Source: Eubacterium sp. (GTDB lineage: Bacteria > Bacillota > Clostridia > Eubacteriales > Eubacteriaceae). Taken from it: DNA of 64,000 nt. A program made the position numbers and the translations under genes. Below the pieces are notes generated by a model. It saw nothing but the letters and a program-made list of their open reading frames with translations. It ran no database searches and was not told where the DNA came from. Where the stretch lies: contig JAUNGS010000004.1 of assembly GCA_030524435.1 (NCBI GenBank), positions 1 through 64,000 of the forward strand, written 5' to 3'. This document shows positions 854 to 23,568 of the stretch, one piece after another; position 1 is the stretch's first letter; each line of letters begins with the position of its first letter.

Positions 854-859
854 AAGCTT

Positions 860-1750: not shown

Positions 1751-1770
1751 TTTATTTTCCTATTTTAAAT

Positions 1771-3207: not shown

Positions 3208-3228
3208 TACTCCTTCTTATGAATATCT

Positions 3229-4053: not shown

Positions 4054-4202
4054 TTTATACTCCTTTTTCATTTGATTAATTCTATACATGTCGCAATACA
4101 TCTTTAATCGCTGTACTCCGAGATGTGCAGAAAAAATTCTACACACCCCCAATCCTAAAAGAACTGATTTATTTAAGAGGGAGGGTTTTGTATTTATCTA
4201 TT

Positions 4203-5012: not shown

Positions 5013-5046
5013 CTTTTTTCTCCTTGTACTAAAATTAAATTTTTTA

Positions 5047-6114: not shown

Positions 6115-6142
6115 CTCTCTCCTTCTTTCTTTAACATGATTA

Positions 6143-6154
6143 GAATACGTATTC
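6143..6154. promoter_or_regulatory. LacI operator O1 (perfect 12-bp palindrome)
   Basis: GAATACGTATTC, a perfect palindrome just upstream of the dehydrogenase start. It is identical to the site at 6265 and nearly identical to that at 6377. Palindromes with a central CG are normal targets of LacI-family repressors, and the LacI gene is adjacent. The role is inferred from repetition and position. Confidence 0.75.
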
Positions 6155-6264
6155 ATTTTTTCTTTAAAAAAATATTATCGCTGTTTATGTATTCTGTTTT
6201 ACCCCATTGTAAACATTTTAATCCAGCTCATTTCACGCATATTCCGCTTTAAGAAGTATTTTTT

Positions 6265-6276
6265 GAATACGTATTC
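6265..6276. promoter_or_regulatory. LacI operator O2 (perfect 12-bp palindrome)
   Basis: Second exact GAATACGTATTC, 122 bp from O1 and about 112 bp from O3 (centre to centre), mid-way in the divergent region. The layout would allow looping between the two promoters. Confidence 0.72.
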
Positions 6277-6337
6277 TTTATGATTGCTATATTACACTCT
6301 TTTTTGCCGTATGTCAACTGTTTTGAAAGAATTTTAA

Positions 6338-6366
6338 TTGTTTTTTTGTTTGTTTTATGAGATAAT
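6338..6366 (+). promoter_or_regulatory. Probable promoter of the lacI-family gene
   Basis: TTGTTT (6338-6343), a 17-bp spacer, then GATAAT (6361-6366). The start would be near 6373, so operator O3 covers about +5 to +16, as expected for autorepression. Confidence 0.55.
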
Positions 6367-6376
6367 GGCAAAAAAT

Positions 6377-6388
6377 GAATACGTATTA
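6377..6388. promoter_or_regulatory. LacI operator O3 (one mismatch)
   Basis: GAATACGTATTA matches O1 and O2 at 11 of 12 positions. It sits just downstream of the predicted lacI start of transcription. Confidence 0.65.
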
Positions 6389-6424
6389 ATTGTAAAATAT
6401 ATTCCAGAAAGGAAATTTTAATCA

Positions 6425-7426
6425 ATGCAGACCACAAAAAAACGTGTTACTTCTATAGAAGTCGCTAAACGCGCCGGCGTTTCTCAAGCCACCGTTTCAA
6501 GGGCCTTTAACCCTGATTCTAAGATGCAGGATAAAACCAGGCAAAAGGTTTTAGCAGCTGCCAAAGAGCTTAATTATACACCGGATGCCATTGCCCGAAG
6601 TATGAGCTCAAACCGAACCAATATTATTGCCGTTATTATGAAAAACCCAACCAACCCTTTTTATGCTAAAATTCTGACATCTTTTTCCAGTTCCTTTCAA
6701 AAGCATAATAAGCAGATTCTCTTTTTTAACTTAGAAAATGAAAAAAATATTAATACTGTTATGCAGCAGGTTCTTCAATACCGCGTTGACGCCATCTTAT
6801 TAACAGATTCTCCTATTTCATTCGATTGGGTTGATACCTGTGCACAATTTAATATTCCCGTTCTGCTTTTTAATCGTTACGCTAATAACCACAATATTAC
6901 TGCAGTGTGTTGTGACAATGTTGAAGCCGGACGTAATTGTGCCAACTATCTCGTCCAAAAGGGCTTCTCCCGTTTTGCATATATTGGGTCAATTGAAGAT
7001 GTATCCACAAGCATTGATCGCCAAAAAGGGTTTTTAGACCGTCTCCAGGAACTAGGCTTTGCCAACTGTGACACTTACAAGTGTTCATTCTCCTACGAAG
7101 CAGGACAAGAAATCATGCGGGAAGTTCTATCAACTGGTGGCAAGTCATACGATGCGATTTTTTGCGCCAATGACCTGATTGCTTCAGGCTGTATGGACGT
7201 TGCCCGTTATGAGCATCATCTTTCATTGCCAGAAGACCTTGCGATTATCGGCTTTGATAATATCGATCTCGCAAGCTATCCATCCTATAATCTCACCACT
7301 TTTGTTCAGCCTTTAGAAGCGATGATCGAAAAAACCGTTCAGCTTATTATGAATCCCAGCGAAACTGATATGAAACGTCACCTGTTTCTTTATCCTTGTA
7401 AAATTATTGAGCGAAAGACGACTTAG
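6425..7426 (+). CDS. LacI-family transcriptional regulator
   Basis: 333 residues. The N-terminal helix-turn-helix (about residues 9-30, SIEVAKRAGVSQATVSRAFN) is the LacI signature, followed by the YTPDAIARSM hinge helix and a periplasmic-binding-like effector domain. The C-terminal half carries AIIGFDNIDLA, as in LacI/CcpA sensors. It is transcribed away from the six-gene catabolic operon, and three copies of a palindrome lie between them, so it is very probably the local repressor, released by a pathway sugar. AGAAAGGA lies about 11 nt before the ATG. Confidence 0.92.
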   Translation: MQTTKKRVTSIEVAKRAGVSQATVSRAFNPDSKMQDKTRQKVLAAAKELNYTPDAIARSMSSNRTNIIAVIMKNPTNPFYAKILTSFSSSFQKHNKQILFFNLENEKNINTVMQQVLQYRVDAILLTDSPISFDWVDTCAQFNIPVLLFNRYANNHNITAVCCDNVEAGRNCANYLVQKGFSRFAYIGSIEDVSTSIDRQKGFLDRLQELGFANCDTYKCSFSYEAGQEIMREVLSTGGKSYDAIFCANDLIASGCMDVARYEHHLSLPEDLAIIGFDNIDLASYPSYNLTTFVQPLEAMIEKTVQLIMNPSETDMKRHLFLYPCKIIERKTT

Positions 7427-8944: not shown

Positions 8945-8990
8945 AATCCTCTTAATTTGATATTTATCTCAATATCAAACCAAGAGGATT
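8945..8990 (-). terminator. Terminator of the GntR gene end of the sugar-phosphate operon
   Basis: Two 20-base arms (8945-8964 and 8971-8990) flank a 6-base loop. The two positions that would be A-C mismatches in plus-strand RNA become G-U pairs in minus-strand RNA, and a short T-run follows on the minus strand. It therefore most likely ends transcripts coming from 9094 and above. The rest of 8805-9093 shows no gene. Confidence 0.65.
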
Positions 8991-9093: not shown

Positions 9094-9828
9094 TTATAAA
9101 TTATGAAACTCATAACGAAGCTTAATCTTATCCCCACGGAATACCACCTTTGAATACTCATAAGGCACATCATTCTGATCAAAAAGATTATCCTCGAGAA
9201 TGAGTAAGGGATAGTCTTCTGCCACACCAAATAATTGGGACTCTTTTTTAGAAGCTCTGACAGATTCTAATGTTTCCTGAATTTTGTGAGGCCGAAGCTG
9301 GTATTCCTTTTCCATAATGACGCAAAGCTGCTCATTAATCAAATCATGTTTTTCAATACCCTCACACAGCTGAATTGGAATATAGGAATGATGTAAACTA
9401 ATGGGCTTTTTTTTCAAATAGCGCATACGTTCAATATACATCACAGAGGCATTTTCTGGAATACGCAATTTTTTTGATACCGAGGCTGATGCCTGAATAA
9501 TCTTTGATTCTAATAATTCTGTTGTCGTCGCATAACCCATACGCTCAAGTTGTTCTCTAAAGCCCATATATGCCAATGAATCTGTCATAATTTTAGGTTC
9601 AGCTACAAAGGTACCCTTTCCGGGAACACGATACAAAATTCCCTCCTGCACCAGATTTTGGCATGCGGTTCGAACTGTCATACGGCTTAAGCCATATTCC
9701 TTCTGCAATTCACTTTCCGATGGAATCGCATTCTGATGCTTCCAAACACCATTATCAATGTTATTTCTAATTAATTCTTCTAATTGTAAATAAAGGGGTT
9801 TAGGAGCATTTTTTTGTATCACAATCAT
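9094..9828 (-). CDS. GntR/HutC-family regulator with UTRA domain
   Basis: 244 residues. A winged helix (residues 5-75, with PSESELQKEYGLSRMTVRTA) is followed by a UTRA ligand domain. HutC-type regulators bind sites like TGGT-n4-ACCA and respond to a small metabolite, often a sugar phosphate. An upstream TTG gives five more codons, but the ATG at 9828 has GGAGGG 8 nt away. It is the last gene of the sugar-phosphate cluster, 148 bp after the dehydrogenase. The palindrome TGGTCATGACCA at the operon promoter (20884-20895) fits this subfamily, so it is the likely operon regulator. Confidence 0.88.
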   Translation of the reverse strand: MIVIQKNAPKPLYLQLEELIRNNIDNGVWKHQNAIPSESELQKEYGLSRMTVRTACQNLVQEGILYRVPGKGTFVAEPKIMTDSLAYMGFREQLERMGYATTTELLESKIIQASASVSKKLRIPENASVMYIERMRYLKKKPISLHHSYIPIQLCEGIEKHDLINEQLCVIMEKEYQLRPHKIQETLESVRASKKESQLFGVAEDYPLLILEDNLFDQNDVPYEYSKVVFRGDKIKLRYEFHNL

Positions 9829-9976
9829 AGCCTTTCCCTCCAAATTTATTGTTTGTCCAGTAAAATAACTACAAAACTTTTTTATTGTAAGAAATCACCT
9901 ATACTTTATCATATATAAACTTTATTTTACAATAAAAATCTCAATCTTAAGCTCATCATTCTTAAATATTTATTAA

Positions 9977-11332
9977 TCAATAAAAATAACTGATTATTTT
10001 ACTAGCTACACGGTCCAATACCCCCAGGGCTTCCGCTACCCATAAAGAATTATATCTTCCGGCACGCATATCTTTTGCGTAGTAAATGCTATTGATAATA
10101 TCCTCTTTCTCAAGTTTCAATTGTTTAGGTGAGTTAGGACCACCACATTCGAAAAGCATCTTTGAAATCCGTTCTGCTGACGGTAAACTATGCAGTTTTT
10201 CTCTCAGCTCATCTCTATGCATTAAAATACATTCTATTTCTTTGCGTCTTTTTTCTCTGTCAAAGTTATGGTTTTCTTTTTGCAATTGTAAGATATCTTC
10301 GGCCCCGTCACCATATACTTCACGTATTTTTGTTGCCCAATCTTCCCTAGTCCACGTTTTTTTCAAGGCACCTTCAATATCAAAATCATCAAAATCCAGT
10401 GATAAAATTTCTTCCCAGATCATCATATTGATAATCGCACCGACACCTACCGCCTGCCCGTGCATGGACTGCGGTATCCCTTTTGCATCTTGACACATCA
10501 TCCAATAGTGGTTCATCTGATGCTCTGCTCCTGATCCACAGGGGGAAGATCCATACCAAGCCATCCCTACAGCACTTTTATATAAACTATCCGTTAATAA
10601 TTCTATGGCCTTTGGGTTTCCAGAAGGAAGACCATCGACAACCACTGGATCTGTTCCCTCCGAAATGCACTGTCCCATCATTTCATTGACATCATCACAA
10701 TAATATACATCTTTTATCAAGTGTGCTGCGTATAAATCCATGGTCGCACTAATTTTTGAGACGACTTCTCCCACGCCCGCCGCATTCATGAATCCAGGCG
10801 CTTTAGCGATAATGTCAGTATCTGCTAAAATAATTTTAGGATAGTCTATATAGTATGTTTCCTGTAATCCATTAATAACAATTACTGACATGTTAGTGAA
10901 AAAACCATCCATCGTCATTGCTGAAGGAATAGATATAGCAGGAAGATTCAATCGTGTTGCTACGTATCGAATAATATCTGTAATTGTTCCTCCCCCAATT
11001 GATATAATATAATCTACATCAAAAGGAACACTACAAATAACCTTGCCAATTGTATTTTCATCAGGGTGCACCCTGCCAGAAAGAATATACTTTTCAATAT
11101 TGATATTCTTTTCTAACCATGCGCTGTATATATCTTGACCAAATGATTGAAAAATCTTTTCATCAGTTACTAAAAAGCCTTTCTTCCCCAGCTCAAGACG
11201 TTTAACAGTCTCTGGCAACCGTAATGCTGCTTGCGATCCTATAACAACTTCTCCAATAGACATACGGTGTTTTTTTCCACAAAAGCAATCAAACTCATGT
11301 TCTGCATATATATTTATATGATCATTTTGCAT
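9977..11332 (-). CDS. Glycerol-1-phosphate dehydrogenase-like (AraM/EgsA family)
   Basis: 451 residues, longer than EgsA (about 350) or AraM (about 394). It shows the NAD-binding GGGTITD at 113-119 and the PSAMTMDGFFTN substrate loop of this iron-alcohol-dehydrogenase superfamily branch. Candidate metal ligands are His271 (SGAEHQMNHYW) and His291 (MHGQAVGVG). The third ligand, normally Asp in GxGD, is Glu189 in GVGEVVSK, an unusual change. Known relatives interconvert dihydroxyacetone phosphate and sn-glycerol-1-phosphate; here a polyol phosphate or another hydroxyketone phosphate is possible. The start at 11332 has GGAGGG upstream, after a hairpin that separates it from the kinase gene. Confidence 0.75.
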   Translation of the reverse strand: MQNDHINIYAEHEFDCFCGKKHRMSIGEVVIGSQAALRLPETVKRLELGKKGFLVTDEKIFQSFGQDIYSAWLEKNINIEKYILSGRVHPDENTIGKVICSVPFDVDYIISIGGGTITDIIRYVATRLNLPAISIPSAMTMDGFFTNMSVIVINGLQETYYIDYPKIILADTDIIAKAPGFMNAAGVGEVVSKISATMDLYAAHLIKDVYYCDDVNEMMGQCISEGTDPVVVDGLPSGNPKAIELLTDSLYKSAVGMAWYGSSPCGSGAEHQMNHYWMMCQDAKGIPQSMHGQAVGVGAIINMMIWEEILSLDFDDFDIEGALKKTWTREDWATKIREVYGDGAEDILQLQKENHNFDREKRRKEIECILMHRDELREKLHSLPSAERISKMLFECGGPNSPKQLKLEKEDIINSIYYAKDMRAGRYNSLWVAEALGVLDRVASKIISYFY

Positions 11333-11341
11333 ATTTCCCTC

Positions 11342-11377
11342 CAAAAGAAAACGCTGGCCAGTATTAACCTGGCCAGC
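11342..11377 (-). terminator. Attenuator-like hairpin between kinase and dehydrogenase genes
   Basis: GCTGGCCAG (11353-11361) and CTGGCCAGC (11369-11377) form a perfect 9-bp stem. On the minus strand TTTTCTTTT follows, then the GGAGGG ribosome site of the dehydrogenase. It looks like an intrinsic terminator inside the operon that would reduce expression of the dehydrogenase and regulator. Confidence 0.65.
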
Positions 11378-11394
11378 ACGCATATGCATTTTTA

Positions 11395-12915
11395 TTAGAA
11401 TATACGATTGTCCAAGGCATTATAAACATTAATAAAACGCTGATAAGCCTTATCATAAGCTTCGAAGTTTTTAGGATTAGGCTCAAATGTTTTTGTCAAT
11501 TTAACAGCCTTTTTAGCTGCTTCCTTACAATTCTCATAAGCACCCACACCAACGCCAGCATATAAAGCCGCTCCTAAGCAACCTGTTTCACTTGCGCTCA
11601 GTAACTGAATTGGTAACTTAAATATATCTGCTAACATTTGACACCACATTGGTGATTTCGCAGCTCCACCCGTCAGACGAATAGCATTAATTTTAATTCC
11701 TGCTTCTAACTCAGCATTAATAATATCATATACCTCGAAACTGATCCCTTCCATAACTGCTCTGGCCATATCTGCCTTTTTAGTCCCCAGAGACATGCCA
11801 ATAAATACGCCTCTCGCCTTATCATTAATTTTAGAACCAGATGCACCTTGGAGATAAGGTAAGAAAGTAATCCCGTTTGCTCCCGGGGGGACTTCAGCGA
11901 TTTGAGCATTAATAAGATCATAGGGATCAATACCAACCAAGTCAGCAGAATATTTTTCAATATCACAGAAAGTATCTCTATACCAACGATAACTTGATGC
12001 GGATGTATTAGAAAAAGCTTCAATTGTATAGTTACCCACACCATGATTTCCTTTGACAACTAATCTGCCTTTGGGATCACGGATCGGTTCATCACTTACA
12101 ATAAAACATGAACCAAATGTCCCCATTACAACAACTGCGGTTCCATCATCGATACCACCCGAGCCAAAGGTATTACAGTTCTGATCATGGGCTCCAATAC
12201 AGATTGGTGTTCCCTCTGCTAAACCTGTCAATTCTGCTACATCTTTAGGAATATAGCCAACCACTTTCCCCGGTTCCCCAACCAGTTCAGCCCTTTTAGA
12301 TAAAGGAATTCCTAACATATCATGCATCTGTTTAGACCAACATTTATTATCTATATCCATCATGCCTTCACGACTTGCTGATGAAAAATCTGTATAGTAT
12401 CCATCTGCACCAAGTTGTTTAAGGAAATAATCTTGATGTGTAGAAAACATAGCTGTCTTTTCCCAATTTTCAGGTTCATGATGTTTTAACCATACTAATT
12501 TTGCAATACTGAAGCACATGCCCAACGGGTCACCAGTAAGTTTGTAGTATTCTTCTCTGGGAATTTGATCTGTAATCCACTTAATTTCTTCTTCGCTACC
12601 TCGAATATCTTGCCATCCTACAAATGGGCGGATCAATTCACCTTCATCGTCTAACAAGCCAATAACCGACCCTTGAGAAGAAAGTCCCACTGCAATAATT
12701 TCTTTTGGATCTATCTGTGCTTTACGAATAGCTTCTTTACAGGTTTTAAACAGTGCCGGTGTCATATCCTTTGGAATTTGTTCAACCCATCCTTCATGGG
12801 GATAATAACACGGATATTCACGATAATCGCTACCAATCAAATTTCCCTCAAGATCAAAAACACATACTTTACAGCCTGTTGTTCCTGCATCCATACCAAC
12901 TAAATATTTACCCAT
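11395..12915 (-). CDS. FGGY-family carbohydrate kinase
   Basis: 506 residues, the normal length for xylulokinase-like FGGY kinases. The N-terminal phosphate loop (GMDAGTTGCKVCVFD, 7-21) is present, Asp244 in GAHDQN is the expected catalytic base, and LTGGAAKSPMWCQ is the C-terminal ADP-binding signature. These enzymes phosphorylate pentuloses, glycerol, erythritol or related polyols. AGGAGAG lies 6 nt before the ATG. Located after the three DeoC-like genes, it probably makes the phosphorylated substrate for one or more aldolases of the operon. The sugar is unknown. Confidence 0.88.
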   Translation of the reverse strand: MGKYLVGMDAGTTGCKVCVFDLEGNLIGSDYREYPCYYPHEGWVEQIPKDMTPALFKTCKEAIRKAQIDPKEIIAVGLSSQGSVIGLLDDEGELIRPFVGWQDIRGSEEEIKWITDQIPREEYYKLTGDPLGMCFSIAKLVWLKHHEPENWEKTAMFSTHQDYFLKQLGADGYYTDFSSASREGMMDIDNKCWSKQMHDMLGIPLSKRAELVGEPGKVVGYIPKDVAELTGLAEGTPICIGAHDQNCNTFGSGGIDDGTAVVVMGTFGSCFIVSDEPIRDPKGRLVVKGNHGVGNYTIEAFSNTSASSYRWYRDTFCDIEKYSADLVGIDPYDLINAQIAEVPPGANGITFLPYLQGASGSKINDKARGVFIGMSLGTKKADMARAVMEGISFEVYDIINAELEAGIKINAIRLTGGAAKSPMWCQMLADIFKLPIQLLSASETGCLGAALYAGVGVGAYENCKEAAKKAVKLTKTFEPNPKNFEAYDKAYQRFINVYNALDNRIF

Positions 12916-12990
12916 TTTTTCTCTCCTATAAAAATATTGTTACAAATCAATTAAAATCCCCCAACTTTAATTGATTCTATTTGTTCACTA

Positions 12991-13716
12991 CTATCCCTGA
13001 TATGCGGGAATCAAACCAATTTTACGTAAATCATCAACACCATCTAAGATTTCTTTGCCACCCTGGGTACCAATCAATTCTGCGCCTGCAAGAATAAAAG
13101 CAAAGGCATTTTGAGGTCTAGGCGCCTTTACGCCGGCTACCTTAACTTTAGTTTTTGTGCCCATCTCTTTTAGAGCATCAACCATAAGAATAACATCAGA
13201 TACGCTGGGGCCAGCATACTGTCCTGTCGAGGTTTTTACCCAATCAATTTCTGCTTCTGCAACTAATTTTGTCGCCGTAACAATTTCCTCTTTCGTCAGC
13301 ATACAGGTTTCGATAATCATTTTTGTCATTGCAGGACCAGCTGCTTTTTTGTAATCTTTAAATTCCTGCAATACTTTATCGTATTTCTTTTCCTTTAAAT
13401 CGCCAACATTCATACAATTATCCAGAACAGTAGCGCCTAAACGCACAGCTTCTTCCGTCTCAAAGCATTTTACAGCTGAACTCTGCTGACCGAAAGGAAA
13501 GCCAATACCTGCCCCTACCAGAAGATCTGTTCCCTTTAATTCTTCTGCAACAACCGGTGTCCAGAATGAAGATGAAAAACAAAACGCTTTACAGTTATAC
13601 TCAATCGCTGTGCGACACCCTTTACGAATATCTTCTTCCGTAGAATCTTTACCTAACACGGAAAAATCAATCAATTTTCCCATATCCCGCTTTGTCATCT
13701 TTGATAAATCAATCAT
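12991..13716 (-). CDS. DeoC-family aldolase, copy 1 of 3
   Basis: 241 residues, class I aldolase of the DeoC/LacD fold. By comparison with E. coli deoxyribose-phosphate aldolase (Asp102, Lys167, Lys201), the proton-relay Asp99 (VLDNCMNVG), Schiff-base Lys161 (WVKTSTGQ) and Lys197 (VAGVKAPR) are all kept. The second-lysine region reads GVKxPRxQNA instead of the classical GVKPAGGVR, in all three tandem copies, so they form a distinct subgroup. True deoxyribose phosphate activity is doubtful. AGGAGGT precedes the ATG. Confidence 0.82.
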   Translation of the reverse strand: MIDLSKMTKRDMGKLIDFSVLGKDSTEEDIRKGCRTAIEYNCKAFCFSSSFWTPVVAEELKGTDLLVGAGIGFPFGQQSSAVKCFETEEAVRLGATVLDNCMNVGDLKEKKYDKVLQEFKDYKKAAGPAMTKMIIETCMLTKEEIVTATKLVAEAEIDWVKTSTGQYAGPSVSDVILMVDALKEMGTKTKVKVAGVKAPRPQNAFAFILAGAELIGTQGGKEILDGVDDLRKIGLIPAYQG

Positions 13717-13742
13717 TAAAATTACCTCCTAAAATAAATTGC

Positions 13743-14462
13743 TTAACCTTCGTATTTTGGAACAATGCCAATTTCACGCATCATATCTAAAGAATCAATA
13801 ATCTGAGGTGCCTGCCTCGTCCCAATTAATTCTGCACCAGCCATTAAGAAACAATAAGCGTTTTGTGCCCTCGGGAATTTAACCCCAGAAACCTTGACCT
13901 TTGCATCAGAATTTTCTAAGGTTTTAACCATAAGCCGAACCTGCTCCATCGTAGGGCCTTCCCATTGTCCCGTAGATGATTTCGCCCAATCTAAACCGGC
14001 TTCAGCAATAAGTTCACAACCAATACGAATTTCATCATCCGTAAGCATACATGTTTCAAGAATCATCTTAGTGATGGCTGGGCCTGCAGCTTTTTTATAA
14101 TCTTTGAACTCCTGAAGAATCTGATCGTATTTCTTATCTTTCATCAGACCAACGTTCATAACATTGTCTAAAACTGTTGCTCCCATCCGAACCGCTTCCT
14201 CAGTTTCAAAGGCTTTCACCGCTGAACTTTGTTGTCCGAAGGGAAAACCAATACCGGCACCAACCAAAATATCTGTTCCTTTTAATTCGTCTGCAACAAC
14301 TGATGACCAAATGGAAGAAGAGAAGCAAAAGGCTTTAACATTATATTTAATTGCTGTTTTGCATTCATCACGAATAATTTTTTCCGTGGTATCTTTTGGC
14401 CCAATAAAATAATCAAAACATTTACCAACTTCTTTTTTAGTCATCTTCGAAAAATCAATCAT
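13743..14462 (-). CDS. DeoC-family aldolase, copy 2 of 3
   Basis: 239 residues, very similar to copy 1 (shared KAFCFSSS, GAGIGFPFGQQSSAVK and FKDYKKAAGPA). Catalytic Asp99, Lys161 (WAKSSTGQ) and Lys195 (VSGVKFPRAQNA) are kept, so it should be active. It lies 26 bp before copy 1 with its own AAGGAG site. Copies 1 and 2 look like a recent duplication, and copy 3 is more distant. The active-site rim differs (WEGPTMEQ against YAGPSVSD), which could mean different substrates or a hetero-oligomer. Confidence 0.82.
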   Translation of the reverse strand: MIDFSKMTKKEVGKCFDYFIGPKDTTEKIIRDECKTAIKYNVKAFCFSSSIWSSVVADELKGTDILVGAGIGFPFGQQSSAVKAFETEEAVRMGATVLDNVMNVGLMKDKKYDQILQEFKDYKKAAGPAITKMILETCMLTDDEIRIGCELIAEAGLDWAKSSTGQWEGPTMEQVRLMVKTLENSDAKVKVSGVKFPRAQNAYCFLMAGAELIGTRQAPQIIDSLDMMREIGIVPKYEG

Positions 14463-14509
14463 TTTAGCTACTCCTTATTTTTTATTATTCATATTTTATA
14501 ACCAGCAAC

Positions 14510-15229
14510 TTATTCTTTATAAGCTGGTACTAATCCGATTTCACGCATCTGATCAAACGCCTCAATAATTGCTACAGCAGCACGGGTTCCAATTAAATCT
14601 GCGCCAGCTTGTAAAAAGGCATATGCATTTTGTGGCCTTGGGAATTTTACCCCTGCAACTTTTAATTTCACATCTGTATTTATTAACGTTTTCTTCATGA
14701 GTAAAAATTGCTCCATAGAAGAACCTTCAAACTGACCAGATGACGTCTTTGCATAATCGATTCCCGATTCAGCAATCAAGTTGCACCCTGCGATGATTTC
14801 ATCATCCGTTAGAAAGTTTACATCTAAAATGCACTTTGTCAGATTACCTTCAGCAGCTTTTACAAATGCATCTAATCCCTGTTTCACCTCCTTATAGTTC
14901 CTATCTTTTAATGCACCAATATTCATAACCATATCAAGAGCCGTACATCCAAGTCGTACAGCTTCTTCTGTTTCTAATCCCTTCATTTTTGCTGTTGACG
15001 CTCCAAAAGGGAAATCTAAACCGGTAGCAACGTGAATATCCGTTCCTTCAAGTTCTTCTTTTACTACAGGTGTCCAATATGGAGATGCTGAATAAAATGC
15101 GGCACAATTGTAAGCTTTTGCTTCCCGACATCCTTTGCGAATATCTGCTTCAGTTGTATTTTTAGGCAACACCGAATGATCAAAACACTTTCCCAATGAC
15201 CATTTATCCATTTTTGATAAATCAACCAT
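14510..15229 (-). CDS. DeoC-family aldolase, copy 3 of 3
   Basis: 239 residues from the ATG at 15229 (a GTG one codon earlier overlaps the GAGGAAGAG ribosome site). Asp99 (ALDMVMNIG), Lys161 (YAKTSSGQ) and Lys195 (VAGVKFPRPQNA) are present. It differs from the other copies in residues 46-85 (FYSASPYW and FPFGASTAKMK instead of FCFSSS and FPFGQQSSAVK), in the substrate half of the barrel. It is the most divergent copy and the first of the three to be translated. Confidence 0.82.
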   Translation of the reverse strand: MVDLSKMDKWSLGKCFDHSVLPKNTTEADIRKGCREAKAYNCAAFYSASPYWTPVVKEELEGTDIHVATGLDFPFGASTAKMKGLETEEAVRLGCTALDMVMNIGALKDRNYKEVKQGLDAFVKAAEGNLTKCILDVNFLTDDEIIAGCNLIAESGIDYAKTSSGQFEGSSMEQFLLMKKTLINTDVKLKVAGVKFPRPQNAYAFLQAGADLIGTRAAVAIIEAFDQMREIGLVPAYKE

Positions 15230-15255
15230 CACTCTTCCTCATACTTTCTACATTT

Positions 15256-15912
15256 TTAAAGAACTAAGTCCTTTATTTCACTTATTGTATCTACAATAAA
15301 AGTAGGCTTTAATTCTTCAAGTATCTCTTTTTTACCATAACCATAAGTTACTGCACACACATCTACACCAGCATTGGCTCCTGTCATAAAGTCTGTTTTT
15401 GTGTCTCCTACCAAAATTGCCTGTTCTGGTCTCATTTGATAATAATTCAGTATTTTTTGAATACACTCTGGATCTGGCTTTGGATTTTTCACATCATCGG
15501 CCGTCACTAAGAAATCAAAATATTTGTCAATTCCTAGGGTTGTCATGATTTTTTCTGTAGCAGTCCTGATTTTATAGGTGGCCAAGGCCATCGGCTTGTT
15601 GATCTTTTGATAGTATTCCAGAATTGCTTTAACCTTGGGATATAGCCCAGTATAAACTGCACAATTTTCTTCGTAGTATTTTTTAAATAGCGGCAGTATT
15701 TCCTTATCTATTAAAGCTTCTTTGTCCTGTCCAAGGCTTTTTAACAGCACATTGCGTGCCCCGCCGCCGATACAGCTGCGTATGAAATCATCTGACTTTG
15801 GTTCAAATTCATACTTTTTAATGATATATTGAACTGTAGCCACAATATCCGCCGCTGAATCTACCAATGTTCCGTCTAGATCAAAAATAATTAAATCATA
15901 TTGTTTTCTCAC
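15256..15912 (-). CDS. HAD-superfamily phosphatase, phosphoglycolate phosphatase-like
   Basis: 218 residues. Motif I is FDLDGTLVD with nucleophile Asp11 and acid/base Asp13, an alpha-helical cap lies at about 16-85, and motif IV is VGDTKTDFMTG. Relatives (Gph, PgmB) release phosphate from small sugar phosphates or move it within them. The start is GTG at 15912, with AGGTGA overlapping the stop of the PHP gene. In this operon it could remove phosphate from a toxic or dead-end intermediate such as a phosphorylated two- or three-carbon product of the aldolases; that is inference. Confidence 0.8.
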   Translation of the reverse strand: MRKQYDLIIFDLDGTLVDSAADIVATVQYIIKKYEFEPKSDDFIRSCIGGGARNVLLKSLGQDKEALIDKEILPLFKKYYEENCAVYTGLYPKVKAILEYYQKINKPMALATYKIRTATEKIMTTLGIDKYFDFLVTADDVKNPKPDPECIQKILNYYQMRPEQAILVGDTKTDFMTGANAGVDVCAVTYGYGKKEILEELKPTFIVDTISEIKDLVL

Positions 15913-15920
15913 AAATTCAC

Positions 15921-16859
15921 CTATAAACTGGACAACAATGCATTATTATAAAAATATTCTGGTGTAACACCGCATTCACCTATATTTCTAACCTTTTTGC
16001 TGGACTTTTTATAATCTGCATGGTAATCCGAGCCGCCAGAAATAATTTTTACCCTGTCAGTATAATCTTTTCGCACCTGATCAATAATTTCTTCCTTTGT
16101 CATTGAACCGTTATAGGTCGTTTTATCGTAGGTATAGGAGGCCTCAATACCATCCAGACCACCTTTGATTAATCGATCTATATACTCTGCCCGTGTACAA
16201 TCGAGACTCTTGGTTTTAATCCTTTCATCGATCAAGTACGGGTGCGCCAAAATGACAATTCCGCCTGCGCGATGTACAATATCAATAATTGTCAGGGGGT
16301 CTGGCTTTTCTCTTTTAATACTGTATTCTGGCGTATTGCGAATCATCAATTTGGCATCACTCCAGGTCTCTGTGTAGCCCTTTTCAGCCATAAGATTAAA
16401 AATAATCTTTTTCTGGACATCTTCTGGTTTTCTCGGAATATTATTGTAATTTAACACCTCTTCCCAGCTGATAGGAAATCCCTTTTGTGTCAGAAGCTCC
16501 GTCAAAGCTCTGTAAGAATCGATTTTACTTTGAACGATAATCCGATTCATTGCGCGAATTTCAGGACTATTGCAGTCAAATCCAAAGGCGACTAGATGAA
16601 CATCCTCTACTTCGGTTTCACAGGAAAACTCAATGCCTCTAAGAAGCTTCATTCCTTTAGTTTCAGCATAATATTCCGCATCAACCATAATGCCATTGAC
16701 CTCAATCTTTTCCGGCGGCAGTACATCATGATCTGTAATTGCAACAACCTTCATCCCCAAATCTGCTGCGGTATCGAGAAATTCCTTGGGTGTATCATTG
16801 CCGTCTGACCGCGTTGTGTGGCTGTGCAAATCGCATAAAAAATTAGGTTTATAGGCCAT
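15921..16859 (-). CDS. PHP-domain phosphoesterase
   Basis: 312 residues with all the metal-binding motifs of a PHP hydrolase: DLHSHTTRSDG (His12, His14), AITDHDVL, LAHPYL and GGSDYHADYK. The family includes histidinol phosphatase, the YciV-type nucleotide phosphatases and sugar-phosphate phosphatases. Together with the HAD gene the operon has two phosphatase candidates beside one kinase, which suggests phosphorylated and free forms are exchanged. AGGAGG lies 5 nt before the ATG. 10 bp separate it from the class II aldolase. Confidence 0.8.
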   Translation of the reverse strand: MAYKPNFLCDLHSHTTRSDGNDTPKEFLDTAADLGMKVVAITDHDVLPPEKIEVNGIMVDAEYYAETKGMKLLRGIEFSCETEVEDVHLVAFGFDCNSPEIRAMNRIIVQSKIDSYRALTELLTQKGFPISWEEVLNYNNIPRKPEDVQKKIIFNLMAEKGYTETWSDAKLMIRNTPEYSIKREKPDPLTIIDIVHRAGGIVILAHPYLIDERIKTKSLDCTRAEYIDRLIKGGLDGIEASYTYDKTTYNGSMTKEEIIDQVRKDYTDRVKIISGGSDYHADYKKSSKKVRNIGECGVTPEYFYNNALLSSL

Positions 16860-16869
16860 TTTTAACCTC

Positions 16870-17721
16870 CTAACATTCTAAAAGTGTAAATAATTTGATA
16901 TGCTTCAGAACCACTTCCTTTACCTTATCTTTTACAAAAGCATCTAATTTCAGCGGGTCATTTTGATCGGGATGCATTTTTGTATATTCACCCATACCAC
17001 TGCAGTAGGCAATTTTAATTGCCGTGGAGATATTTACTTTCGCTGCCCCTAAATCAATGAGACGTTTAAATGTATCTGTGCTCAGCCCTGTTCCACCATG
17101 CAGTACCAGCGGACAGGGTGAAAAACTCTCGATCTTCTTAAAAAGATCATAATCAATTTTCACTTCACCCTTATACAAACCATGAGCCGTTCCAATGGCT
17201 GGTGCAAAAGCATCGATACCTGTGGCTTCAAGATAGACTTTGCAATCCTTTGGATCTGCCAAAGCACTTTCTCCCTCTTTTACAACAATATCATCTTCAA
17301 CACCAACAATAGCACCCAGCTCTCCTTCTACGGTAACCCCTTTTTTATGGGCCGCTTCTACAACGGCTTTCGTATTTTGAATATTATCCTTCAGCGGCAG
17401 CTTCGAACCATCGTACATCACAGAACTCCAGCCACCTTCAATACAGGCAAGGGTAAAATCTACATCCGTAGAGTGATCTAAATGGATAGCTACGTCTACA
17501 GCAGCATTTTTAACAATGGGCTTTAGAAATCCCATCATCTCAGAAATTCCAAATTGCTTTACTGTCTTTACCGATGTCTGAAGAATAATCGGAGCATTCA
17601 GTGCTTCCGCCGCTTCTACGGAAGCTTTGGCCGTCATCTCGTTGACAATATTAAATGCCCCAACTGCGTAGCCGCCTTGCCTCGCATTTTTTAAAATTTT
17701 TTCCATATTTACGTAGCTCAT
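16870..17721 (-). CDS. Class II ketose-bisphosphate aldolase
   Basis: 283 residues of the Fba/GatY/KbaY zinc aldolase family. Zinc and active-site motifs are IHLDHSTD, VEGELGAIVG, AIGTAHGLYKG and VLHGGTGL. The ATG at 17721 follows AGGAGGTG; 12 further in-frame codons upstream overlap that site and are excluded. Relatives cleave fructose-, tagatose- or sedoheptulose-bisphosphate to dihydroxyacetone phosphate plus an aldehyde. Next to transketolase and transaldolase-like genes, a seven-carbon or modified ketose phosphate is as likely as fructose bisphosphate. Confidence 0.85.
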   Translation of the reverse strand: MSYVNMEKILKNARQGGYAVGAFNIVNEMTAKASVEAAEALNAPIILQTSVKTVKQFGISEMMGFLKPIVKNAAVDVAIHLDHSTDVDFTLACIEGGWSSVMYDGSKLPLKDNIQNTKAVVEAAHKKGVTVEGELGAIVGVEDDIVVKEGESALADPKDCKVYLEATGIDAFAPAIGTAHGLYKGEVKIDYDLFKKIESFSPCPLVLHGGTGLSTDTFKRLIDLGAAKVNISTAIKIAYCSGMGEYTKMHPDQNDPLKLDAFVKDKVKEVVLKHIKLFTLLEC

Positions 17722-17734
17722 TTTTTCACCTCCT

Positions 17735-19045
17735 TTATTTTTGGCCATTTGCCGCATTCATAAAACGTCTCTGATAGGAAACAACCTGATTACATGAAGT
17801 GAATCTTGCCAAATACTGTGGTTCAGCCGTAATGACAACCCGGTTTACCAAATCTGCAAACTCTGGTTCAACTAGCACCTTATCAATATCTGGATAGTTT
17901 AAGGGACCTTCCATACTGCAAATAATTAATCTTGAATCCGGCAGATTTGTATTTTTAAACCACCTCAAATTGTGGCGTACACCATCTAAGCCATCTGCAC
18001 CTTCTGCATCATTAAAATGACGGTATTTTAATAAGGCCTCAGCTTCGTTTTTAACAGACAAAAGATCCATATCCTGTCCCTTTGCCAGATAATCCTTGTC
18101 GATAAACATGGCTTTAATAGCTTCTAAATATTTGCTGTCCCCTGTGGCATTATAGGCTGCCAGGTTTTGATTCATCTGCTCAGACTGCATGTACCGATGG
18201 CGAATAAAGCTATTGATAAAATAGGGTTTTGCCTGAAGGGCCAGAGCTGTCTGATAAGGCTCGAACATTAAAGTAAAGTTTACCCGGTAACCATTTTCCT
18301 GAAGCATCAACGCCAGATTATGGCCCCTTAGTGCATCGGCTGTACCGGGAGCGTTATAGGGAACATCAAATTTTTTATCGCCTTTCAGCAGTTGGCCCAC
18401 ATTTTCACGGCTGACAGGACCCGTATGCGGCACTTTAATAACCACTCTGTATTCTGACAGCATTTCTTTAAACTTTGCAGCTTCTTCCAAAATTTCTGTA
18501 TCAGATTTTCCAAAGGGATCGTTGAGTTCCACACTGATATCAGCTCCCGGCCCTAATATTCTGCCAATTTCTGCCATTACTTCATCCCGGGTTTTAAACT
18601 GATTGCCTATATTGGCCTTTGGATTATTGATGAACAAATCATAGATGATCCCCGGATTACAGGTTAAATTGGCTAAAATATTTTTAATCGGTGCAACTTC
18701 ATAAGGATTCGCACTGTCTGCCGAAAAGAGAAGATTGGTTGGCCGCTTTACACCATTCTTATCATAACTGATATCTCTCACTAAATCTGCCCTGAGTACA
18801 CCATCTTCATCCAGTATATATTCTACTTTGAAACCTGCTGGCGTTTCTCCCTCGGGTACATTAAAGGTATCAATGACTTTTTTAAATTCTTCTGTGACGC
18901 CAATCGCTTTGACATAGGCTTTTAATTTTTGAAATGTTTCAAAATCAATCGGGTGATCGATCACTCTGTTAAGGTAGCTTTTTTCACTGTCAATAAAGGT
19001 AACCTCACTCTGCTTTAACGTATTTAAACTGCATTTAATTTCCAT
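17735..19045 (-). CDS. Enlarged transaldolase-superfamily protein
   Basis: 436 residues, with no close named relative recognised. A transaldolase barrel spans about 104-300: FSADSANPYEV with Asp110, LTCNPGIIYD (cf. TTNPSLI), ISVEL, VVIKVPHTGP with the Schiff-base Lys204, and VNFTLMFEPYQTALA followed by INSFIRHR (cf. SPFVGR). The N-terminal 100 and C-terminal 130 residues match nothing I know. Normal transaldolases have about 220-340 residues. The catalytic lysine suggests an active dihydroxyacetone-transfer or aldol enzyme with an altered substrate pocket. AAGGAG precedes the ATG; it ends 13 bp before the class II aldolase. Confidence 0.7.
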   Translation of the reverse strand: MEIKCSLNTLKQSEVTFIDSEKSYLNRVIDHPIDFETFQKLKAYVKAIGVTEEFKKVIDTFNVPEGETPAGFKVEYILDEDGVLRADLVRDISYDKNGVKRPTNLLFSADSANPYEVAPIKNILANLTCNPGIIYDLFINNPKANIGNQFKTRDEVMAEIGRILGPGADISVELNDPFGKSDTEILEEAAKFKEMLSEYRVVIKVPHTGPVSRENVGQLLKGDKKFDVPYNAPGTADALRGHNLALMLQENGYRVNFTLMFEPYQTALALQAKPYFINSFIRHRYMQSEQMNQNLAAYNATGDSKYLEAIKAMFIDKDYLAKGQDMDLLSVKNEAEALLKYRHFNDAEGADGLDGVRHNLRWFKNTNLPDSRLIICSMEGPLNYPDIDKVLVEPEFADLVNRVVITAEPQYLARFTSCNQVVSYQRRFMNAANGQK

Positions 19046-19064
19046 CTTAGTTTTCTCCTTATGT

Positions 19065-20012
19065 CTAAATTTTCATATAGCTTTCAATGGTTTCTGCCAA
19101 TTTATCCGAGGTCAGGCCATGATATTTCAGCAATTCATTGTAGGGTCCGGTTTGTATGGCGCCTGCTGCAATTCCAATAAGATACACCGGCGTATTCTCC
19201 TTTATATCGGCTACACTTTCAAGAACGCTGCTGCCAAAGCCACCCGTCGTGATATGCTCTTCAACGGTACACATAATCTTACTTGATCGATACAATGCAC
19301 GAATTGTTTTTTTATCTAAGGGCTGAACTGTTGTAAAGTTTATCACCCTGACACCATAACCTTTTTCAGAAAGCACTTTCCCAGCTTCCAAAGCTTCCCT
19401 GTTTAAAGTTCCTGTCACTAAGATAGTGATATCCTTCCCTGTATCGAGAAGCGTCTCGGCTTTACCGACTTCAAAGTTTCTTTGTTCTGGAGGCAACGGC
19501 ATTTCCACACTATGCCTGGGCATTCGAATATAAAAGGGTCCTTTACACGCGGCAGCCTTTCTCAGACACATCTCTACTTCGTATCCATCCCCCGGATTAA
19601 AAATCACCATATTTGGAACTGTCCTCAGCAATGCCATATCTTCAATCGCCTGATGTGTTGATCCCAAGTTGGAATGCGCCAATCCTGTGCTTGAAGCGAT
19701 AATTTTTACGTTTTTATTGGCATAGCCTACATCATTTCGAATTTGTTCAAAACAACGCATCGATATAAACGGTGCAATCGCTGATACGATGGGCGTTCTC
19801 CCTGAATCTGCCAGACCTGCACACACACCAATGGCATTCTGTTCGCTGATGCCTACCTCTAAAAATTGCTGAGGCAAATGTTCTTTAAAGGCCGACATGC
19901 CTGACCCTGCACCAGAATCGCAGGATACAGCCATAATATTTTTATCCTTCTCTCCAAGCTCCAGGAGGATCTCGCCGAAAACATCCCTGGGATTTAATTT
20001 TACATTTTCCAT
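19065..20012 (-). CDS. Transketolase, C-terminal subunit
   Basis: 315 residues containing the pyrimidine-binding and C-terminal domains of a split transketolase. GISEQNAIGVCAGLADSG carries the glutamate that activates thiamine diphosphate. The ATG at 20012 overlaps the stop of the N-terminal subunit gene in a TGATG junction, so translation is coupled. A GTG three codons earlier is less well placed relative to AAGGGG. Split transketolases serve the pentose phosphate pathway, and a split pair also serves as apulose-4-phosphate transketolase in apiose breakdown, so the substrate may be special here. Confidence 0.88.
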   Translation of the reverse strand: MENVKLNPRDVFGEILLELGEKDKNIMAVSCDSGAGSGMSAFKEHLPQQFLEVGISEQNAIGVCAGLADSGRTPIVSAIAPFISMRCFEQIRNDVGYANKNVKIIASSTGLAHSNLGSTHQAIEDMALLRTVPNMVIFNPGDGYEVEMCLRKAAACKGPFYIRMPRHSVEMPLPPEQRNFEVGKAETLLDTGKDITILVTGTLNREALEAGKVLSEKGYGVRVINFTTVQPLDKKTIRALYRSSKIMCTVEEHITTGGFGSSVLESVADIKENTPVYLIGIAAGAIQTGPYNELLKYHGLTSDKLAETIESYMKI

Positions 20013-20857
20013 CAAGACCACCCCTTTTCTTTACTGTAGTCCTTCAAATCCTTTACTGCCTGCTGCGCTTCTTCCGAATTCTTATCGGGATTCCAATGAT
20101 GGTATTTAACCTTACCCTCTGCAAATGACATCCCTTTACTTTTCACTGTATTTGCAATGATCATCGTTGGCTTTTCTTTCTGCAGCGGTACTTGATCAAA
20201 AACCTCTAAGAGCTGTTCGATATCGTGCCCGTCTACAGTGATAACTTTCCAGCCAAAGCTCTTATATTTTTCTTCAAGGGCCCCACTATCAAGAACCTCT
20301 TGTGTTGTTCCGTTAATTTGAAGTCCATTGCGGTCTATAATCGCTACTAAGTTGTCAAGCTTCTGGTGTGCTGCAAACATTGCCGCCTCCCAGTTTGACC
20401 CTTCTCCTTGCTCACCATCTCCCATTAGAACGAAAACACGGTGATCCTCACCCTTTAATTTTGCGTCTATTGCCATGCCGCATCCAACAGATAACCCATG
20501 ACCCAGCGCTCCAGAGCTAAAATCAACACCTCTGAATTTTTTCATATCAGGATGCCCTGGAATTTTAGTCCCCAACTGATTGTAGGTGTCAAACACGTTC
20601 CGGCTTTCAAATCCTTTTTCCACAAGGGCACCGTAAAGTGCAAGACATTTGTGTCCAGCACTTAGAATGAAGCGATCTCTCTTTTCCCATTTTGGCTGGT
20701 TGACATCTAGGCGCATAACACCAAAATATAATGCCGCTAAAATATCCGTACAAGATAACGACGGCCCTGCGTGACCATCCCCATGGTTAATTATTGTATT
20801 GACAATATGACAACGCATATTCAATGCCTTTTTCTCTATGAATTCTACATTCCTCAC
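20012..20857 (-). CDS. Transketolase, N-terminal subunit
   Basis: 281 residues of the thiamine-diphosphate-binding domain: GHAGPSLSCTDILAALYFGVM and the GDGEQGEGSNWEAAMFA motif, followed by IIDRNGLQ. The frame is open to an ATG at 20890, but I place the start at the GTG at 20857: AGGAGGGG lies 9 nt before it, and the upstream ATG would be only about 8 nt from the predicted transcription start and inside the operator. First gene of the sugar-phosphate operon. Confidence 0.87.
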   Translation of the reverse strand: MRNVEFIEKKALNMRCHIVNTIINHGDGHAGPSLSCTDILAALYFGVMRLDVNQPKWEKRDRFILSAGHKCLALYGALVEKGFESRNVFDTYNQLGTKIPGHPDMKKFRGVDFSSGALGHGLSVGCGMAIDAKLKGEDHRVFVLMGDGEQGEGSNWEAAMFAAHQKLDNLVAIIDRNGLQINGTTQEVLDSGALEEKYKSFGWKVITVDGHDIEQLLEVFDQVPLQKEKPTMIIANTVKSKGMSFAEGKVKYHHWNPDKNSEEAQQAVKDLKDYSKEKGWS

Positions 20858-20883
20858 GACGAAGCCCCTCCTGTCATCATTAG

Positions 20884-20895
20884 TGGTCATGACCA
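20884..20895. promoter_or_regulatory. GntR/HutC-type operator (perfect palindrome)
   Basis: TGGTCATGACCA, a perfect 12-bp palindrome, centred about 9 bp downstream of the predicted transcription start. It fits the TGGT-n4-ACCA pattern bound by HutC-subfamily regulators such as NagR/DasR; the operon's own GntR gene is the obvious candidate. Confidence 0.68.
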
Positions 20896-20904
20896 GTTAA
20901 TGCT

Positions 20905-20933
20905 AGTATAGTAGCAGTGTAATCGTTTGTCAA
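20905..20933 (-). promoter_or_regulatory. Sigma-70-type promoter of the sugar-phosphate operon
   Basis: On the minus strand TTGACA (20928-20933), a 17-bp spacer and TATACT (20905-20910). Start predicted near 20898, giving a leader of about 41 nt to the GTG at 20857. Confidence 0.82.
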
Positions 20934-22041: not shown

Positions 22042-22117
22042 TGGTGTTCCCGACCAGGCTTGAACTGATGACCTCTACCATGTCAAGGTAGCGCTCTGCC
22101 AGCTGAGCTACGGGAAC
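22042..22117 (-). tRNA. tRNA-Val (anticodon GAC)
   Basis: 76 nt with encoded CCA. Acceptor arm GTTCCCG pairs with CGGGAAC, the D arm has GCTCAGCTGGCAGAGC, the anticodon arm CTACC/GGTAG encloses loop TTGACAT with GAC, and the T arm carries GTTCAAGC. It reads GUC and GUU valine codons. A terminator follows directly, so it is a single-gene unit. It lies at the base-composition change of the window. Confidence 0.95.
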
Positions 22118-22178
22118 AATTTTTAAGTGCTTATTTATTATAGCGAACTCTCTGGGGTTTGTAAAGTACTTTTTGAAA

Positions 22179-22883
22179 TTAAATAACCGTTTCCGCACTG
22201 ATGGCAAAGTATTCCTTTTTGATATAAAACTCACTGAAGCTGATGGGCATATTGTCCTCCACCGACACAATGCGCTGGGACACCATAAAGACGTGCTCCT
22301 CGGGCTGGGTGTTCAGATAGCGGCGCACCTCCAGGGGCGGCAGAATCATCTCGATGTGAAGATGCTTTTTTAACTGAAACTGCATCTTGCCCTTTTCCAT
22401 AATGCCGTGGAAATTGGCGAAATTGATGACGTCCTCCACAATGGGGTTTCCCTTCTGGTAGGGCAGATAGATGGCCATGTACTGGGCGCTGTCCTCATCG
22501 ATATACACCGTCTTCTGGACCTTGATGACCTTCTCGAAGGCGCCGATTTTAAGCTCCCTCATCAGCCGTCGGCCCGGGGAGATAACCCCGACCTTCACCA
22601 GCTTGACCTCGTCGATTTCTCCCTGCAGGCTGTCGATCTCGTCAAAGTAGAACTGATAGTGGTTGGAGGTGGGCTCGCAGACGAAATTGCCCTTGCCTGG
22701 AATGGTGTAGATATAATTTTCATTGACCAAAAGAGCCAAACTTTTTCGGAGGGTTGTCCGACTGACATCGTAAAAATCTGAAAGCTCGTGCTCCGAGGGC
22801 AAAATATCCCCGGGCTTTAAATCGCCCTTTTCAATCTTTCCCTTGATGTCATTGACAATATCTAAGTAAAGTATCTTTCGCAT
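22179..22883 (-). CDS. GntR-family regulator with UTRA domain
   Basis: 234 residues. Winged helix at 5-75 (PSEHELSDFYDVSRTTLRKS, then IPGKGNFV) plus a UTRA effector domain ending in SFSEFYIKKEYFA. It follows the corrinoid protein gene by 12 bp and is surely co-transcribed. The same pairing of corrinoid protein and GntR gene recurs at 58-60 kb, so these regulators probably sense methylated amines or related substrates. GC-rich codon use matches the right part of the window. Confidence 0.88.
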   Translation of the reverse strand: MRKILYLDIVNDIKGKIEKGDLKPGDILPSEHELSDFYDVSRTTLRKSLALLVNENYIYTIPGKGNFVCEPTSNHYQFYFDEIDSLQGEIDEVKLVKVGVISPGRRLMRELKIGAFEKVIKVQKTVYIDEDSAQYMAIYLPYQKGNPIVEDVINFANFHGIMEKGKMQFQLKKHLHIEMILPPLEVRRYLNTQPEEHVFMVSQRIVSVEDNMPISFSEFYIKKEYFAISAETVI

Positions 22884-22895
22884 ATCCCTGCCCTT

Positions 22896-23522
22896 CTAGC
22901 TCAGCCAATTCCGACAAATTTCCACGCCCTCGATGGCATCGCAGGAAAACCCATCGGCGCCGACGTACTCGGCGTACTCCTTGCCCGCCAGGGCACCGCC
23001 TAAAATCACCTTGATATCATCCCTGAGTCCCGCTTCCACAAGGCCGTCGATAACCTCCTTGATGTTTTCAATGACCGAGGTGAGGATACCGCTGATGCCT
23101 AAAATCGCCGGCTTTTCCCGACGGATGGTCTCGATAAACAATTCCTTGGGGACATCGGTGCCCAGGTCGATGACCTCGAAGCCCTCGGAGCGCAGCATGC
23201 TGACAAAGATATTCTTTCCAACGTCGTGGATATCGTCGTAGACGGTACCCACAAGGATCTTGCCCCCGGGGGCACGCTTAACGGCTGCGCTGTTGTCCAT
23301 CCCCGTGACCTTGAACAGATTGGCCACCAGCTCCCCGGCCATGATCAGATCGGCGATATAGTACTCCCCTTGCTCGTAGCGCCTGGCCACACACTGCAGA
23401 GCGTAGTTGAGATCGTTGACGATCTCCCGGGGGTCCTTGCCGCCTTCGACCATGGCCGTCACCAGGCGATGGGCCCCCAGCTCATCGATTTCCGACACCG
23501 CTTCAATTAATTTTTCATCCAT
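22896..23522 (-). CDS. Methyltransferase corrinoid protein
   Basis: 208 residues of the MtaC/MttC/MtbC type. The N-terminal four-helix cap (1-85) is followed by a B12-binding Rossmann domain with the base-off motif DIHDVG: His99 is the lower cobalt ligand. It carries methyl groups between a substrate-specific methyltransferase and a tetrahydrofolate methyltransferase. No methyltransferase gene adjoins it, so the partner is elsewhere. The ATG at 23522 is preferred because an extended -10 box overlaps the only upstream ATG; its ribosome site is weak (GGGATGG). Confidence 0.88.
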   Translation of the reverse strand: MDEKLIEAVSEIDELGAHRLVTAMVEGGKDPREIVNDLNYALQCVARRYEQGEYYIADLIMAGELVANLFKVTGMDNSAAVKRAPGGKILVGTVYDDIHDVGKNIFVSMLRSEGFEVIDLGTDVPKELFIETIRREKPAILGISGILTSVIENIKEVIDGLVEAGLRDDIKVILGGALAGKEYAEYVGADGFSCDAIEGVEICRNWLS

Positions 23523-23559
23523 AGCTTTTCCATCCCGTAATTTTCGTTTTCTTTGCTCC

Positions 23560-23568
23560 ATTATAACA
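23560..23568 (-). promoter_or_regulatory. Extended -10 promoter of the corrinoid-GntR operon
   Basis: Minus strand TGTTATAAT (TATAAT at 23560-23565 with the TGn extension). No good -35 box is seen. Start predicted near 23553. Confidence 0.5.

Follow-up and report, generated by a model that had tools for sequence, protein, structure and literature searches.

Which pathway is served by twelve minus-strand genes of an Eubacterium sp. (positions 9094-20890) that unite a split transketolase, a long transaldolase, a class II ketose-bisphosphate aldolase (FBA), PHP-domain and HAD phosphatases, three proteins related to deoxyribose-phosphate aldolase (DERA, DeoC; here Deo1-3), an FGGY kinase, a dehydrogenase of the glycerol-1-phosphate dehydrogenase (G1PDH)/AraM type and a GntR regulator? 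The analysed stretch of 64,000 nucleotides (contig JAUNGS010000004.1, positions 1 to 64,000; hereafter the window) had received a first-pass annotation that listed these genes as a sugar-phosphate operon without transporter, isomerase or epimerase. According to the list of open reading frames (ORFs) and profile searches, the claimed order and strand of the twelve genes are correct (see Table 1), and so are the claimed absences for the operon of the window. The gaps between the called ORFs range from -23 to 75 nt, with the exception of 133 nt ahead of gntR; the positions of the ribosome binding sites (RBS) shift four starts inward (tktN, FBA, dehydrogenase and GntR genes). The operon is real, accessory and conserved in acetogens related to Eubacterium and Acetobacterium; the most fitting description is that of an uncharacterised carbohydrate operon, a catabolic variant and not a new kind of system.

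A scan based on the transaldolase yielded 80 loci from several phyla. When the same gene order was sought in other genomes, the whole operon, together with a fourth DeoC-like gene, was found in E. callanderi (L002), and rearranged versions in further relatives (A. bakii, E. aggregans, E. barkeri, A. dehalogenans, Pseudoramibacter). Of 40 Eubacteriaceae genomes, 12 encode a member of the kinase clade (identity of at least 72%), and all five genomes of the window's genus are among them; across the class, a kinase search with a cut-off looser than 72% identity gave 6 of the 391 sampled genomes. In all twelve kinase-bearing Eubacteriaceae genomes (window counted), Deo2 and then Deo1 were located directly upstream of the kinase, whereas the downstream position varied: it was occupied by the dehydrogenase (6/12), a Deo3-type gene plus transaldolase, a transaldolase, a GntR gene or a second FGGY kinase. 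In consequence, the kinase with Deo1 and Deo2 is regarded as the core and the dehydrogenase as an optional member. A search of plasmids gave only generic matches of 29-38% identity for the kinase and DeoC relatives and none for the transaldolase.

Deo1-3 align with DERA structures along their length, belong to the same family as the canonical enzyme (DeoC) and have all three retained its catalytic Asp and both Lys residues. In canonical DERA, the loop GG[IV]R and the following Ser-Ser are the phosphate-binding residues; in contrast, Deo1-3 carry GVKxPR[PA]QN instead of the loop and an R- or Q-containing motif (GT[RQ]xx) instead of the serines, and the DeoC-like proteins of the operon form one clade in the tree, separate from the canonical DeoC of the same genomes. 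The nearest other DeoC-like group (SGVPRTF) adjoins the long transaldolase in nucleoside operons. Judged by these residues, Deo1-3 are presumably active Schiff-base aldolases of changed specificity, and the operon encodes what appears to be at least one new aldolase subfamily (signature KxPRPQN). As a separate observation, PEP_hydrolase-like (PF09370) proteins, one with an AraC-type helix-turn-helix domain, are encoded beside DeoC-like genes in two loci (L031, 2350-5760; L075, 12387-14404).

FBA and the PHP phosphatase probably act in sequence, since they occur as natural fusions of about 600 amino acids in six relatives (L006, L010, L011, L012, L037, L040) and since in two loci (L187, L188), where neither kinase nor transketolase is nearby, their genes stand in a group of three with a single DeoC-like gene. 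In the simplest reading, FBA would make a bisphosphate that is dephosphorylated by PHP. Sedoheptulose-bisphosphate is an attractive prediction for this intermediate for three reasons: erythrose-4-phosphate is a metabolite common to transketolase, transaldolase and FBA; another bacterium, when it uses erythritol, needs both Fba and Tal to bring erythrose-4-phosphate into metabolism (PMC11508834); and cellulolytic clostridia use the same bisphosphate instead of a transaldolase (PMC7029132).

The oversized transaldolase-like protein of the first-pass annotation indeed comprises 436 residues: in its AlphaFold model (pLDDT 93), an extra N-terminal part (1-102) precedes a transaldolase-type TIM barrel (103-436) that matches 6ys0 with a Z score of 22.4 and a root mean square deviation of 2.4 over 214 residues. 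The catalytic Asp110, Glu173 and Lys204, as well as Phe280, were aligned by hhalign and are invariant in 51 sequences. Fructose-6-phosphate aldolase (FSA; e.g. 4rz4) carries Gln and Tyr at the positions of Glu173 and Phe280; the residues of the long protein thus fit a transaldolase rather than FSA.

These components would suit an inducible catabolic operon in which kinase, DERA-type aldolase and a recycling part (transketolase, transaldolase, FBA, PHP) act in succession, a broad model with roughly even chances of being correct, whose reaction order and direction are predicted. A small sugar or sugar alcohol, taken up without a transporter of its own, would be phosphorylated by the FGGY kinase; at least one of Deo1, Deo2 and Deo3 would cleave the product in a retro-aldol reaction via a Schiff base, which would release an aldose phosphate (erythrose-4-phosphate or glyceraldehyde-3-phosphate) together with a short aldehyde or ketone. 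FBA would then join dihydroxyacetone phosphate to erythrose-4-phosphate (or glyceraldehyde-3-phosphate), PHP would take off the 1-phosphate to yield sedoheptulose-7-phosphate (or fructose-6-phosphate), and the split transketolase and long transaldolase would convert these products to fructose-6-phosphate and glyceraldehyde-3-phosphate for glycolysis; the G1PDH-like dehydrogenase might serve as an optional entry step for the alcohol form. The order of kinase before aldolase is favoured, since the dehydrogenase is optional and Deo1 and Deo2 always adjoin the kinase, and it would explain why aldolases are so numerous in the operon and isomerases absent. More tentatively, the operon might represent an undescribed acetogen route, in which DERA-like enzymes of the KxPRPQN family release erythrose-4-phosphate and a small carbonyl compound from a phosphorylated sugar, and the erythrose-4-phosphate is assimilated through sedoheptulose-bisphosphate by a dedicated module that includes the FBA-PHP enzyme. 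Two points weigh against the proposed scheme: the altered phosphate loop could mean that the DeoC-like proteins do something other than sugar phosphate cleavage, and the presence of RpiB or glycerol-dehydrogenase-like genes in some relatives indicates that the pathway may differ between clusters.

The GntR regulator encoded in the catabolic operon would act as its repressor. The consensus promoter claimed upstream of tktN is present, although its consensus match alone is weak evidence, since it is the joint best of 60 matches in 20 kb where about 50 are expected by chance; support comes from E. callanderi (L002), in which the same -35 and -10 elements and the same palindrome, ACTGGTCATGACCACT, are found at the same place upstream of tktN. 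This palindrome is a probable GntR site, and its overlap with the expected transcription start suits repression by the operon's GntR protein. With up to two mismatches, it is the single site in the window genome; related palindromes are located upstream of Deo2 (L011, L037), of a DeoC-like gene (L027) and of tktN (L003, L007), and the remaining two-mismatch sites appear to be chance matches or sites of other regulators (aga-type operon, L117). A regulon search with the operator for a hidden transporter found none, and the reversed-pattern control gave as many or more matches. Beside the kinase or HAD gene of three relatives, a membrane protein without Pfam match is encoded (L008, 5166-6293; L045, 12711-13709; L036, 12298-13323), a possible transporter. 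Of the single transcript assumed in the first-pass annotation, the one operon behind a shared promoter and operator holds; the kinase is, however, split from the dehydrogenase by a hairpin followed by a T tract (TTTTCTTTT), which is also found in E. callanderi with base changes that keep the pairing. This hairpin is a possible partial terminator or attenuator, and since it precedes the dehydrogenase and regulator genes with conserved pairing, their products may be made in smaller amount than those of the upstream genes.

The substrate proposed earlier, a branched, deoxy or short-chain sugar, was not substantiated: tetritols, pentitols and deoxy-sugars all remain candidates. The kinase is similarly close to autoinducer-2 kinase, glycerol kinase and xylulokinase, and scores under all NCBIfam specificity cut-offs. 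In the dehydrogenase, both His of the Asp-His-His metal ligands of AraM/G1PDH are retained, whereas the Asp is replaced by Glu in its subfamily, and the NAD motif reads GGG where GSG is expected. The suggested entry by diffusion receives weak support from an aquaglyceroporin gene next to a more distant kinase relative (47% identity). RpiB is encoded in the clusters of some relatives (L006, L019, L020) and reaches about equal scores for RpiB and the D-erythrulose-4-phosphate isomerase DerI, under the DerI cut-off; a similar protein occurs in L048. On contig 25 of the window genome (L138, 5245-11020), dhaL, dhaK, a dhaM-like gene and a gene for an HPr-PAS-sigma54 activator diverge from rpiB2-tpiA2; DhaKLM beside rpiB2-tpiA2 is an arrangement known for tetruloses. 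The aquaglyceroporin, the near-DerI RpiB genes and the DhaKLM-rpiB2-tpiA2 cluster are hints of a diffusible polyol.

These hints are also what speaks for catabolism of a tetritol or pentitol (e.g. erythritol, threitol, ribitol), in which the kinase would form a polyol phosphate, the G1PDH-like enzyme would oxidise it, a DeoC-like or RpiB-type step would lead from the resulting ketose phosphate to erythrose-4-phosphate or a pentose phosphate, and transketolase, transaldolase, FBA and PHP would assimilate the product; the Brucella erythritol route likewise runs via erythrose-4-phosphate, Tal, Tkt and Fba (PMC11508834). Such a route is nevertheless unlikely, though it survives best among the alternatives: its oxidation step would require a dehydrogenase that follows the kinase in only half of the kinase-bearing genomes, the RpiB matches stay below the DerI cut-off, and neither the EryC racemase nor the EryH/EryI isomerases have a homologue among the twelve operon genes, rpiB2-tpiA2 being located on another contig with DhaKLM. 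Moreover, 24 of the 40 family genomes carry rpiB2 (10/12 with and 14/28 without the kinase), a difference that is not significant (Fisher p=0.08); the co-occurrence was dropped as a substrate clue, the cluster being common in the family irrespective of the operon. The open-access literature yielded no usable information on whether E. limosum or E. callanderi grows on tetritols.

The relatives of the long transaldolase bring nucleoside salvage into consideration, with the DeoC-like proteins as deoxyribose-5-phosphate aldolases and transketolase and transaldolase handling ribose-5-phosphate. In six loci (L057, L058, L061, L070, L078, L079; Mediterraneibacter and Faecalicatena among the hosts), a long transaldolase gene adjoins a related DeoC-like gene, and most of them add phosphopentomutase, uridine phosphorylase, amidohydrolase and a BMP-type ABC transporter, i.e. 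functions of nucleoside catabolism, which is consistent with a pentose-phosphate role of the long transaldolase. For the window operon itself, this alternative is improbable: phosphorylase, DeoB and nucleoside transporter are absent from it, its DeoC-like proteins fall into a different clade with canonical DeoC encoded elsewhere in the genome, and an FGGY kinase would be unnecessary for nucleosides.

A similarly low probability is assigned to an anabolic or gap-filling module, in which triose phosphates would be converted to pentose phosphates by FBA, PHP, transketolase and transaldolase when growth is gluconeogenic, and the DeoC-like enzymes would form a specific deoxy- or other sugar. Both the FBA-PHP fusion and the kinase-free FBA-PHP-DeoC trio would suit synthesis equally; the patchy distribution (12/40 genomes), the kinase for a free sugar and the local GntR/UTRA regulator, a type typical of catabolism, argue for the catabolic operon instead.

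The enzyme families of the operon belong to central metabolism, and the transketolase of these genomes is commonly of the split form. In the window genome (assembly of 2.16 Mb, 81% complete), however, a second split transketolase is encoded on contig 19, a canonical transaldolase of 217 amino acids on contig 83 and canonical DeoC on contigs 70 and 68 (245-257 bits versus 151-161 for the operon copies). With these copies elsewhere and the kinase core missing from most relatives, the set appears dedicated, as had been claimed, and a housekeeping pentose phosphate set clustered by accident is very improbable and was rejected, even though in two Acetobacterium genomes (G002, G008) no TAL/FSA-family protein other than the long transaldolase was found, so that it may be the main transaldolase there. 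Contig 68 also harbours a group of genes for HAD, GntR, FGGY kinase, nitroreductase-like, short-chain dehydrogenase/reductase (SDR) and three DeoC-family proteins (L164, 4541-11105) that ends at the contig edge.

Table 1. Genes and regulatory elements of the operon in window coordinates, with the evidence for each assignment.
Feature	Coordinates	Strand	Evidence and remarks
tktN, transketolase N-terminal half	20012..20857	-	PF00456 E=1e-50; RBS AGGAGGGG; called ORF to 20890, GTG start 20857 most likely
tktC, transketolase C-terminal half	19065..20021	-	PF02779, PF02780
Long transaldolase, 436 aa	17735..19045	-	PF00923
Class II ketose-bisphosphate aldolase (FBA)	16870..17721	-	PF01116, TIGR00167 above cut-off; best PDB match 7ncc; called ORF to 17757
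PHP-domain phosphatase	15921..16859	-	PF02811
HAD phosphatase, phosphoglycolate-phosphatase (PGP)-like	15256..15912	-	PF13419; below NCBIfam PGP cut-off
Deo3, DeoC-like aldolase	14510..15232	-	TIGR00126 161 bits; clade and signature
Deo2, DeoC-like aldolase	13743..14462	-	TIGR00126 151 bits; clade and signature
Deo1, DeoC-like aldolase	12991..13716	-	TIGR00126 157 bits; clade and signature
FGGY carbohydrate kinase	11395..12915	-	PF00370, PF02782; below every NCBIfam specificity cut-off
G1PDH/AraM-like dehydrogenase, optional member	9977..11332	-	PF13685; subfamily features; called ORF to 11389
GntR/UTRA (HutC-type) regulator	9094..9828	-	PF00392, PF07702; called ORF to 9843
Sigma-70-type promoter TTGACA-17-TATACT	20905..20933	-	11/12 consensus matches
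Near-palindromic operator ACTGGTCATGACCACT, probable GntR site	20882..20897	.	k-mer comparison of relatives' upstream regions; overlaps transcription start
Intergenic hairpin and T tract, kinase/dehydrogenase gap	11351..11379	-	scan; fold of 11345-11385 = -19.8 kcal/mol
Strong intrinsic terminator 3' of gntR	8945..8990	-	20-pair stem; fold -25 kcal/mol

The operon is neighboured by a cluster of sugar-acid type (window 80-7426) that comprises genes for an HpaI-type aldolase, SMP-30 lactonase, fucose-isomerase-like protein, SDR, creatininase-like protein, Ldh_2 dehydrogenase and a divergent LacI regulator. Upstream of the operon (window 22042-23561), tRNA-Val, a second GntR gene and a gene for a corrinoid (methyltransferase-type) protein are located; a homologue of the latter adjoins the other transketolase on contig 19 (L165).

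E. callanderi, Acetobacterium and the relatives of E. limosum are acetogens of one-carbon biotechnology, gut and sediment, and the operon in their genomes could point to a carbon source that has gone unrecognised. Three enzyme groups, namely the DeoC-like clade, the long transaldolase and the fused FBA-PHP enzyme, probably represent new specificities that would be useful for annotation and aldolase biocatalysis.

The absence of a matching known pathway, as stated in the first-pass annotation, was upheld: no published pathway combining these families was found in the open-access literature (subscription journals being mostly uncovered, so that an earlier description is possible), and comparison with the erythritol, apiose and sulfoquinovose systems gave no match. 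With the erythritol pathway (EryA-EryB-EryC-EryH-EryI with Tal/Tkt/Fba), the operon has in common a kinase of the FGGY family, a putative dehydrogenase step and the predicted use of Fba, Tal and Tkt for erythrose-4-phosphate; in contrast, it is devoid of the EryB flavoprotein, EryC, EryH and EryI, and possesses three DeoC-like proteins and a PHP phosphatase. The D-apiose (apulose-4-phosphate transketolase) pathway combines a split transketolase with an FGGY kinase, and this pair is indeed present; the likeness noted earlier extends no further, and split transketolase is the common form in these genomes. The operon adds transaldolase, FBA, PHP, HAD and three DeoC-like proteins, and neither an apiose isomerase nor a transporter was found among its ORFs. 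The sulfo-transketolase/sulfo-transaldolase clusters for sulfoquinovose also unite split transketolase and transaldolase in one catabolic cluster (PMC11659671); this pathway was rejected, as the operon contains no sulfoquinovose importer, isomerase, SQase or sulfolactaldehyde/sulfoacetaldehyde (sulfonate) reductase, and, over the barrel, its longer transaldolase shares only about 21% identity with BmSF-TAL. The Lachnospiraceae nucleoside clusters share with the operon the same long transaldolase family beside a DeoC-like gene; whereas those clusters surround it with phosphopentomutase, uridine phosphorylase and a nucleoside ABC transporter, the window operon combines it with an FGGY kinase, FBA and PHP.

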